DNA from: an uncultured Paraglaciecola sp.
GTDB lineage: Bacteria > Pseudomonadota > Gammaproteobacteria > Enterobacterales > Alteromonadaceae
Assembly (NCBI RefSeq): GCF_913020055.1
Contig: NZ_CAJWCF010000011.1
Location: 1-57,666 of the forward strand
Length of the DNA stretch: 57,666 bases
Direction of reading: 5' to 3'
Shown here: in pieces, positions 49,323 through 51,821 of the stretch
Layout: each line of letters opens with the position of its first letter
Position numbering within the stretch: the stretch's first letter is position 1
The notes under the pieces: model-generated
Databases searched by the model: none
What the model saw: the letters and a program-made list of their open reading frames with translations, nothing else
What the model was told of the DNA's origin: nothing
Made by a program: the position numbers and the translations under genes

Positions 49323-50339
49323 TTAGTTGACTAATCCCATATGAGAGGCAAAACCAAAACGCAAGTTAGCGCATTGTAGTGCTTGAGAGGCTGCGCCTTT
49401 TAATAAGTTATCAATGGCACTGGTAACAACAAGGTAGCCGGTTTTTTCATCCAGTTTCCAGAATAGATCGCAGTAAGGTGTACCCACTACATCGTCTATT
49501 TTAGGCCAACTTTTTCTGAGCCTAACAATAGGGTTGCCTTGGTATGCCTGTTGATAAGCATCGGCAACTTGTTGAGCTGAAACATCGGTGGCTAGTTTTA
49601 CGGTAATTGTTGCCAAGATCCCGCGTTTAAAATTACCCAAATGTGGGGTGAAAATCACATCAGTGCCTAAATAATCTGCAATTTCTGGTTGGTGTCTGTG
49701 CCCCAACACTCCGTATGCCTGCAAGCTGACTTCAGTAAAACTACTATTTAATGCTGCCTTTCTACCTGCTCCCGATACACCTGATACCGCGTTGATAATA
49801 GGAAAGTGCGTAGAGTCAATTAAGCCATTTTGTTGAAGTGGTTTAAGGGCAGTTAAAGAGGCTGTTGGGTAACAACCTGGCACCGCAACCAAGTTGGCGC
49901 TACTGATCTGATCTTGATGCCAATCCGCTAGACCGTACACAGCTTGTGCTAGTAACTTATCTGCATGATGCTCAAAGCCGTAATACTCTGCGAATTTGTT
50001 TTTATCTTTGATCCTAAAGGCACCTGACAAGTCCATTATCACTGCTTTGTTACCACATAGTTCGTTCATCCATTTGTGGCTTGCTTCATGTGGTGTGGCT
50101 AAAAATATTAGATCGAAGCTTTCAGATAAGGTTGATAAGTTATCTTCATCTATTGGCTGAAGAGGCAAATCAATGGCGTTAAAAAACTTAGGATGTATTT
50201 CGCCCAAAGACTTCCACGCATCAACACTATTTGTAGAAACATACAATGCTGCTAATTCAAATTGGTTATGGCCGTGAACTAAAGCGGCCAACTCAGCGCC
50301 GGTATAACCACTGGCACCAATAATACAGGTTTTGATCAT
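49323..50339 (-). CDS. argC: N-acetyl-gamma-glutamyl-phosphate reductase
   Basis: 338 residues. IIGASGYTGAELAALVHGH (NADP site), the catalytic-Cys motif VAVPGCYPTASLTAL and VSGVSGAGR. Reduces acetylglutamyl phosphate to the semialdehyde. First structural gene of argCBFGHA, behind a leader of about 285 nt that contains a possible attenuator. Confidence 0.97.
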   Translation of the reverse strand: MIKTCIIGASGYTGAELAALVHGHNQFELAALYVSTNSVDAWKSLGEIHPKFFNAIDLPLQPIDEDNLSTLSESFDLIFLATPHEASHKWMNELCGNKAVIMDLSGAFRIKDKNKFAEYYGFEHHADKLLAQAVYGLADWHQDQISSANLVAVPGCYPTASLTALKPLQQNGLIDSTHFPIINAVSGVSGAGRKAALNSSFTEVSLQAYGVLGHRHQPEIADYLGTDVIFTPHLGNFKRGILATITVKLATDVSAQQVADAYQQAYQGNPIVRLRKSWPKIDDVVGTPYCDLFWKLDEKTGYLVVTSAIDNLLKGAASQALQCANLRFGFASHMGLVN

Positions 50340-50386: not shown

Positions 50387-50440
50387 GGTAAAAATAAAAA
50401 GCACTCTTTGTTCAAACTATATAGCTTAAAACAAAGAGTG
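50387..50440 (-). terminator. Terminator-like hairpin in the argC leader (candidate attenuator)
   Basis: On the minus strand, CACTCTTTGTT (50440-50430) pairs perfectly with AACAAAGAGTG (50412-50402) and is followed by CTTTTTATTTTT. This is an intrinsic-terminator layout placed 48 bp before the argC start, so it would stop transcription before the operon. An alternative stem uses TATAGCT (50447-50441) and AGCTATA (50426-50420), which cannot form together with the terminator as nested stems. Confidence 0.6.
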
Positions 50441-50461
50441 AGCTATACGCTACAGCGTCGA

Positions 50462-50527
50462 CTATCGTCGATAAAACATGCTGGCGAAGCTAGGCAGGGA
50501 AACAAACTGGAAAAAAAATAAGTACAT
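50462..50527 (-). CDS. Candidate arginine leader peptide, 21 codons ending Arg-Arg-stop
   Basis: A short frame starts at an ATG (MYLFFFQFV…), has a second in-frame ATG at 50479, and ends Phe-Tyr-Arg-Arg-stop with two CGA codons (50470-50465) just before TAG. Leader peptides rich in the regulated amino acid are the hallmark of ribosome-mediated attenuation. The Arg codons lie 15-40 bases ahead of the competing hairpins. Weak points: no good ribosome site upstream of either ATG, only two Arg codons, and no proof of translation. The codons also lie in a CGAC/GTCG mini-hairpin. Confidence 0.4.
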   Translation of the reverse strand: MYLFFFQFVSLPSFASMFYRR

Positions 50528-50650
50528 ATACGTTATCGAACCAAAACAAGTTAAAATAAAAAGTTATTACACTGAATCGACTATTTGATTTATTAGTCGT
50601 TTCTTATTGGTCTATAGAATGCCATGTGTTATATATTTATGCAATAATAG

Positions 50651-50664
50651 TGAATAATTATTTA
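50651..50664. promoter_or_regulatory. ARG box (ArgR operator), one mismatch
   Basis: TGAATAATTATTTA matches the ArgR half-site pair TGAATWWWWATTCA with a single change. It lies directly before the argE start and overlaps the likely -35 of the argC promoter, so ArgR could repress both directions. A second box 21 bp away (50628-50645) matches only in half. Confidence 0.6.
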
Positions 50665-50669
50665 ATTGG

Positions 50670-51821
50670 ATGGTTATGCCAAATTTATCTTTCTTAGAAC
50701 ACTACGAAACTATCATTAATAGCCCGTCTATTAGCGCTTTTGATGAAAAAATAGATCAGACCAATAGGCCACTTATTGACATACTATCAGGCTGGTTTAG
50801 CGATCTTGGATTTACAATAACTATTCAGAAAGTGCCCGAGACTCGAAACAAATTTAATATGTTAGCCAAAATGGGTAGCGGAGAAGGGGGATTGTTGCTT
50901 TGCGGTCACTCGGACACAGTGCCCTTTGATGAGGGCAGTTGGCAATCTGATCCTTTTAAGGTGAAACAAGAAGATGGAAAACTCTTTGGTTTGGGCAGTT
51001 GTGATATGAAAGGTTTTTTTGCTTTTATTCTTGAAGCATTAAAAACTATTCCCCTAAATAAATTGAACAAACCTTTGTATATATTGGCCACGGCAGATGA
51101 AGAAACGTCTATGGCAGGCGCTCGCTTTTTTGCTCAACAACAATTGATAAAACCCAATATGGCGATTATTGGTGAACCGACTGAGCTCATACCTATCTAT
51201 AAACATAAAGGGCATATCGCTCAAAGTTTAAATATTCAGGGTAAGGCAGGGCATTCTAGTGATCCTGATAAAGGTGTGAATGCCATCGAAATTATGTATC
51301 AGGCCATTGGTCAACTGATGGACTTGCAGACTAATTTAAAAACTAAGTTTCATGACGATGCTTTTAGTGTGCCCCATGTGACCATGAATTTAGGCCATAT
51401 TCATGGTGGAGATGGTGAAAACCGGATCTGTGGACATTGTAAATTAAACTTTGATATGCGCGCTGTACCTGAGCTAAACGATGAACAGGCCCTTGCCATG
51501 ATTGATGAGGCTTTGGCGCCAGTATTTGCTAAATATCCCAACCGTTTAAGTTTGGATTTGATGTACCCCACTGCGCCCGCTTTTGCCTGTCGCGATGAGC
51601 AAAATATTTTAGCGTTGGCTGAACAACTTACAGGTAAAAAATACCAAAGTGCCAACTACGCCACTGAAGCACCTTTTATCAATCAATTAGGTTGCGATAC
51701 TATTGTTTTGGGGCCTGGCAGTATAGAACAAGCTCATCAACCTGATGAGTATATTTCTTTGGATTACGTTAATCCTACCGTTGTCATTTTGCAGCAAATG
51801 ATCAACAAGGTGTGTTTTTAA
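50670..51821 (+). CDS. argE: Acetylornithine deacetylase
   Basis: 383 residues of the M20 metallopeptidase family. LLCGHSDTVPFDEG (metal ligand His80, then Asp82), GSCDMKGFFAF, ATADEETSMAGA and GEPTELIP give the di-metal site. Removes acetate from N-acetylornithine, so this organism uses the linear pathway, in keeping with a separate argA. Two ATGs two codons apart are possible; the second (50676) has GGA nearer. Divergent from argC. Confidence 0.95.
   Translation: MVMPNLSFLEHYETIINSPSISAFDEKIDQTNRPLIDILSGWFSDLGFTITIQKVPETRNKFNMLAKMGSGEGGLLLCGHSDTVPFDEGSWQSDPFKVKQEDGKLFGLGSCDMKGFFAFILEALKTIPLNKLNKPLYILATADEETSMAGARFFAQQQLIKPNMAIIGEPTELIPIYKHKGHIAQSLNIQGKAGHSSDPDKGVNAIEIMYQAIGQLMDLQTNLKTKFHDDAFSVPHVTMNLGHIHGGDGENRICGHCKLNFDMRAVPELNDEQALAMIDEALAPVFAKYPNRLSLDLMYPTAPAFACRDEQNILALAEQLTGKKYQSANYATEAPFINQLGCDTIVLGPGSIEQAHQPDEYISLDYVNPTVVILQQMINKVCF

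Follow-up and report, generated by a model that had tools for sequence, protein, structure and literature searches.

Is the argC operon of an uncultured Paraglaciecola species controlled by a repressor only, or does the transcribed leader ahead of argC add a second control which responds to arginine? Arginine biosynthesis in the gammaproteobacteria is usually presented as an ArgR system. In the stretch of DNA analysed here, referred to as the window (57,666 nt, contig NZ_CAJWCF010000011.1), the region upstream of argC contains elements which suggest that transcription of the argC operon is subject to ribosome-mediated attenuation in response to arginine, at a step downstream of ArgR control. 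Based upon sequence comparison we put the probability of this reading at about 0.8.

The argE-argC intergenic region

The first gene of the operon, argC (49323..50339, minus strand), scores above the cut-off of NCBIfam TIGR01850; it starts at 50339 and forms a divergent pair with argE, which starts at 50670. The argB, argF, argG, argH and argE genes likewise exceeded their NCBIfam cut-offs, argA being outside this check, and the named relatives in an ArgC-based comparison were all Paraglaciecola (7/7 loci). Reading along the minus strand from argE to argC one meets an ARG-box-like block, a plausible sigma-70 promoter, a 21-codon ORF and, at 50440-50389, a hairpin of 39 nt followed by a U-rich tail. 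An earlier, sequence-only reading had described here an Arg-Arg frame followed by four pairing segments and a U-rich tract; its description was correct, all of the elements lying on the minus strand at the coordinates which it gave.

Two putative ARG boxes, the operators of ArgR, fall in a block (50628..50665, minus strand) which is conserved in the genus alignment and appears to resemble the ARG-box consensus, and a gene of the ArgR family is present in the same genome. The putative argC promoter (50616..50644, minus strand) consists of a -35 element TTGCAT, a 17-nt spacer and an extended -10 element TGGCATTCT, recognized by eye in conserved columns; transcription is predicted to start near 50609. 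A promoter scan of the window did not return this promoter among its sites and gave another minus-strand site at 50682-50654, while an Rfam scan of the window yielded no family at gathering score.

The leader ORF and its arginine codons

The leader ORF, MYLFFFQFVSLPSFASMFYRR*, occupies 50462..50527 on the minus strand and reads ATG TAC TTA ... TAT CGA CGA TAG, that is, 21 codons and a TAG stop, with a peptide C-terminus of Tyr-Arg-Arg. The frame ending in Arg-Arg-stop noticed previously is hereby confirmed (50527-50462), as is the admitted weakness that no clear Shine-Dalgarno sequence can be seen before its ATG. The tandem CGA CGA codons, which are putatively regulatory, lie at 50465..50470 (minus strand). 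They and the stop codon are enclosed by a small hairpin, TCGAC-GATA-GTCGA (50458..50471, minus strand), which is present in the minimum free energy fold; a similar hairpin is still seen by eye in the leader of L016, in which the Arg reading has been lost.

Relatives were compared by means of A2, a hand-picked alignment of 21 sequences from the genus and its sister genera. Upstream of the Arg codons the string TCCCTGCCT (50492..50500, minus strand; A2 columns 11-19) is invariant in 21/21 A2 sequences, and its identity extends to the third codon positions. No consistent pairing partner for this string was found in the 330 nt upstream or in the 90 nt extending into argC. Within the genus, inspection of the alignment by eye indicates that the position of the ORF start is shared by most members and that changes in length between the start and the Arg codons are of whole codons, those of one or two bases appearing just past the leader stop.

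The terminator hairpin

The hairpin CACTCTTTGTTTTAAGCTATATAGTTTGAACAAAGAGTG (50402..50440, minus strand; -17.2 kcal/mol) has a covarying stem with arms CACTCTTTGTT (50440-50430) and AACAAAGAGTG (50412-50402). The latter is followed by CTTTTTATTTTT, and the U-rich tail CTTTTTATTTTTA occupies 50389..50401 (minus strand), its T tract being conserved in A2. A 71-nt stretch around the hairpin folds with a z of -4.0 relative to shuffles. A simple terminator scan of the window reported no site at the hairpin, probably because the stem is bulged and closes no loop of 3-8 nt without a bulge.

In A2 the terminator helix shows changes on both sides in 11 of its 14 pairs, with 92.9% of cells paired, and the whole structure scored above every one of 500 shuffles by each of the five measures used, in a control which ignores relatedness. 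When only the genus is considered (11 sequences) the terminator pairs form in 94.2% of cells and 7/11 have changed on both sides. Over 32 clusters the terminator arms of a leader outdo permuted arms with a z of -14, and RNAalifold, run on A2 with no structure supplied, recovers the terminator stem together with five pairs between the segments which we call region 1 and region 2. The terminator-like stem (CACTCTTTGTT:AACAAAGAGTG) and U tract of the sequence-only reading are present, and the stem covaries across genera; it is AT-rich, as had been conceded. That reading had proposed an alignment of related argC leaders as a check: the compensatory changes in the terminator stem are kept, and the Arg-codon leader recurs across genera.

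A covariance model built from A2 gave one clear match in the window's own genome (E 1.6e-23), the next candidate having an E of 0.45 (150 of 1401 first-look candidates scored). Of 98 relatives, 28 gave a single match each at an E of no more than 0.01. All but one of these (27/28) lie immediately upstream of argC, the exception being a weak match elsewhere in G033 (E 0.008); 14 of the 27 argC-linked matches were training sequences and 13 came from outside the training set. In this search 37 candidates per genome were scored under strict filters, and weaker copies elsewhere are possible.

A probable helix between the leader ORF and the terminator

Region 1, AGCTTCGC (50484..50491, minus strand), lies inside the ORF, 13 nt from the first Arg codon, and pairs with region 2, GCGTATAGCT (50441..50450, minus strand), which is situated directly against the terminator. 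The earlier scheme does not include this helix, one side of which is formed by ORF sequence. The window itself possesses the weaker form found in this genus, of 3+3 bp (CGC:GCG and GCT:AGC) separated by an internal loop. Its counterpart in sister genera has 7-9 bp which change together, as in GCTATGC:GCATAGC and GCTACGC:GCGTAGC.

Measured by energy, the pairing of region 1 with its own region 2 is better than that with permuted ones (p 0.0012, 32 clusters); by longest helix the permutation p is 0.018 (31 clusters), and against shuffled region 2 sequences the mean z is -0.46 (SE 0.23). Of its eight pairs in A2 three never vary and two have changed on both sides; pairing is missing at columns 20-72 in 7 of the 21 sequences, at 24-68 in 11 and at 25-67 in 10. 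We regard with moderate confidence the helix as real.

The 13-nt distance between region 1 and the Arg codons is constant in 21/21 A2 sequences, that between the codons and the terminator being variable; given the size of a ribosome footprint, this spacing fits a stalled ribosome covering region 1. Ten leaders of the L092 type were compared in this respect: the distance could not be taken in one, and in the other nine it is either identical or longer by a single codon. The comparison also backs the helix and the constant spacing between region 1 and the codons, less firmly than it does the ORF, the tandem CGA codons and the terminator. When the ribosome was masked in folding the 32 cluster representatives, region 1:region 2 pairing was 0.35 in the free RNA, 0.08 in the stalled state and 0.19 with the ribosome at the stop codon. 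As a separate observation, in L092, L095, L103, L107 and L114 the leader frame extends some 8-10 codons beyond CGA CGA and ends with CGG TAG within region 2, so that its last Arg codon abuts the terminator.

Distribution and codon specificity

An initial collection of argC upstream regions numbered 70; in 36 of them an ORF beginning with ATG had tandem Arg among its final four codons, relative to a mean of 1.5 and a maximum of 5 in shuffles (40 runs). When all residues were compared over 117 regions, tandem Arg near the stop of short ATG-started ORFs occurred in 60, the runner-up being Leu with 13; on the antisense strand of the same regions Leu led with 9 and Arg was outside the top eight. 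Under a stricter rule, which called for a short ATG-started ORF with CGA-CGA, 89 of 144 regions in 8/20 families possessed a leader and 55 did not, the shuffles giving a mean of 0.41 and a maximum of 2 (100 runs). By family the counts were f1 69/99, f2 2/3, f6 3/3, f10 1/2, f12 3/3, f15 2/2, f16 8/9 and f25 1/2, with 0/21 in twelve other families; since this sample is skewed towards ArgC-similar genomes, these are not frequencies. In 51/117 regions the leader was found together with a hairpin that ends in a T-rich tail, the two in the correct order.

The choice of codon is also biased. The 60 regions contain 67 tandem Arg pairs, among which CGA-CGA accounts for 56, and CGA makes up 121/134 of the Arg codons in the 67 pairs, while its share in the window is 96/613 Arg codons (40 mechanically found ORFs). 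A Salmonella study found strong relief of his attenuation where an Arg-Arg pair included CGA (PMC4046918).

Within the genus 18/22 members carry the strict leader. The others are L005, which has CGA CGG, L009, in which the start would be TTG, L012, which has lost the element, and L016, in which a stop precedes the Arg codons. The element appears to be decaying in places within the genus, with a premature stop in L016, the whole of it gone from L012, and a degenerate hairpin in L013, where none was found. L039, L099, L109 and L112 retain a terminator-like hairpin before argC and lack the tandem Arg codons. Very short leaders, such as MLLFRRR and MHTLKLRR, whose Arg codons precede argC by some 110-180 nt, were observed in L064, L065, L067, L068, L075 and L077; no convincing intrinsic terminator was found after these leaders, and Rho or another mechanism may act there. 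In L067, L072, L073, L075 and L077 a string like TGAATAAAATTGCA, presumably ARG-box-like, recurs by eye near the argC start, separate from the upstream box-like sequence.

Arginine codons within the terminator stem

A different layout is found in genus g53, which belongs to another family. Its leaders end in RRR (RQR in L126), and in 8/9 species the Arg codons lie within the 5' arm of a U-tailed hairpin, with 8 or all 9 of the codon bases included. The energies of these hairpins, computed with no shuffle control, range from -6.8 (L126, weak) to -20.7 kcal/mol; in L128 no hairpin with a U-rich tail was found. In the window's own family L086 has a comparable arrangement, GCGACGAC...GTCGTCGC followed by eight T, in which 7/9 codon bases are paired (again with no shuffle control). 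In g53 and L086 a ribosome stalling at these codons would itself block the hairpin and so act as the antiterminator. With the codons in the terminator arm a separate antiterminator would not be needed. The differing RNA layouts around the same codons lend support to arginine sensing at the level of the codon.

We think it fairly likely that these leaders constitute a so far unrecognised kind of arginine-specific attenuator, present in many gammaproteobacteria (8/20 sampled families of the order) and existing beside ArgR. Their shared core would be a short ORF carrying CGA CGA(CGA) close to its end, and the RNA switch around it would have been remade several times over; in one minimal version the codons would serve as the 5' arm of the terminator and the stalled ribosome as the antiterminator.

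Proposed mechanism

The short leader peptide would be translated while RNA polymerase moves on. With ample Arg-tRNA the ribosome would pass the CGA CGA codons and leave, region 1 would pair with region 2, and the adjoining hairpin and U tract would terminate transcription. With Arg-tRNA scarce the ribosome would stall on the CGA codons with its rear covering region 1; region 2 would then be free and the polymerase would read through. In this scheme we infer the translation of the leader, the stalling, the direction of the response, and the prevention of terminator folding by the freed region 2. In the window's own genome TATAGCT:AGCTATA could keep the terminator open, a pairing which its relatives do not keep.

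The antiterminator and alternative explanations

That pairing was the core of the sequence-only reading, in which TATAGCT (50447-50441, minus strand) and AGCTATA (50426-50420, minus strand) form an antiterminator in competition with the CACTCTTTGTT:AACAAAGAGTG terminator, by the logic of the his, trp and leu attenuators. The four segments and both pairings do exist in the window's own genome, and when a stalled ribosome is masked on its leader, with the 3' arm yet to emerge, pairing between region 2 and the terminator loop increases from 0.24 to 0.57. Masking a ribosome at the stop codon gives 0.58, however, so that the fold fails to tell the stalled and stop states apart, and the 32 cluster representatives show no clear gain (0.07 free, 0.10 stalled, 0.03 at stop). 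Over 11 genus sequences 58.7% of the TATAGCT:AGCTATA cells are paired with none changed on both sides; the compensatory changes which had been looked to for this stem are missing within the genus, and the pairing is largely private to the window's genome. Pairing of region 2 with the loop has no own-sequence specificity (32 clusters; permutation p 0.46, shuffle mean z +0.11). Permutation of region 2 with the loop, the 5' arm and the 3' arm, and of region 1 with the loop and the 3' arm, disclosed no specific antiterminator; shuffles were run for regions 1:2, 2:3 and 1:3, and only 1:2 was specific to its own sequence. Two leaders have lineage-private pairings, namely a strong match between region 2 and the loop in L040 alone (z -4.7), and GAGGTCTG:CAGACCTT in L019, against the 5' arm of the terminator. 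What survives of the proposed logic is an Arg-codon leader and a covarying terminator which recur across genera; the particular antiterminator lacks comparative support, and we consider the switch in exactly that form unlikely.

The sensor might instead be the nascent peptide, which, as with TnaC or SpeFL, would both stall the ribosome and sense arginine in place of Arg-tRNA sensing by codons. A motif resembling SLPxYA-x4-RR does recur by eye across genera of the family, but the third positions of TCC CTG CCT nGC are invariant in 21/21 A2 sequences, which points to a constraint on the RNA; the leaders of other lineages (MLLFRRR, MHTLKLRR) share only RR, and a biosynthetic operon needs stalling at low rather than high arginine. 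Such arrest strikes us as quite improbable. Rho-dependent termination, or translational coupling through the leader as in speF orf34, could replace the hairpin, and would accommodate L063, L065, L070 and L075, which carry the leader with no intrinsic terminator found after it. A portion of the work on the Salmonella speF leader describes two consecutive Arg codons which act via Rho, unfolding of the ribosome binding site and RNase G (PMC6386406). Against this the covarying U-tailed hairpin is maintained in the window's genus and in the sister genera, and for this locus we hold the explanation to be very improbable. The least probable of those weighed is that ArgR is the sole control, and that the leader ORF and hairpin are a device for translation coupling or insulation with a constitutively leaky terminator. 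It agrees with the presence of an ArgR gene and a conserved ARG-box-like block, and with a proteobacterial regulon study which, in the part cited, places the arg biosynthesis genes in the ArgR core (PMC5343134), but it leaves the specificity for Arg and the choice of CGA unexplained.

Comparison with known systems

An attenuator sensing Arg-tRNA remains the preferred reading. ArgR repression would act on the same operon in response to the same signal, and an ARG-box-like block lies upstream here; it depends on a DNA-binding protein at the promoter, whereas the argC attenuator would be a separate layer. The arg T-boxes likewise sense the charging of Arg-tRNA, as outlined in part of PMC1262725; they bind the tRNA directly, and the window has no Rfam T-box match at gathering score. 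The Pseudomonas carAB leader also encodes a leader peptide upstream of an arginine/pyrimidine gene, its attenuation being tentatively ascribed to pyrimidines in the section cited (PMC4997734). Salmonella speF orf34 shares with the argC leader consecutive Arg codons in a leader ORF, and its ribosome pauses at low arginine; according to the same portion of PMC6386406 it controls ornithine decarboxylase via Rho, exposure of the ribosome binding site and RNase G, whereas here an intrinsic terminator precedes argC. The gene downstream is argC and not an ornithine decarboxylase gene. The part cited of a survey of 16 Shewanella genomes gives six attenuators (branched-chain, his, thr, trp and phe), none of them for arg (PMC3223726). 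Among the literature matches listed there was no arg-operon attenuator of proteobacteria, in a search that covered mainly openly available papers, so that priority is unproven.

If the reading is true, the same operon carries a second layer of control in several families, one which senses Arg-tRNA instead of free arginine, and argR mutants should keep responding to arginine. Since CGA is used almost to the exclusion of other Arg codons, these leaders also lend themselves to a natural test of whether sensing is codon-specific. The form with its codons in the stem would be about the simplest attenuator possible, of use in understanding the evolution of RNA switches and in building arginine sensors.

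The his, trp, thr, leu, ilv and phe attenuators of gammaproteobacteria have a leader ORF containing codons for the end product, a 1:2 pairing, and a terminator before the first gene. The argC leader shares with them the short ORF with repeated codons, the 1:2 pairing and the terminator; in it were found repeated Arg codons in a short leader, a covarying intrinsic terminator, and a 1:2 helix to which the ORF contributes one strand close to the Arg codons, the last with moderate statistics. It differs in that arginine would be sensed, in that the codons are few (2-3), nearly all CGA and in most cases near the end of the ORF, in that no conserved 2:3 antiterminator was found for the arg leaders, and in that the operon is probably an ArgR target as well. 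With an antiterminator that is possible in this genome but not conserved, the argC leader is not classed here with the full members of the classical group, but, to judge from its sequence, it works in the manner of the his, trp and leu attenuators and has most of their defining features.
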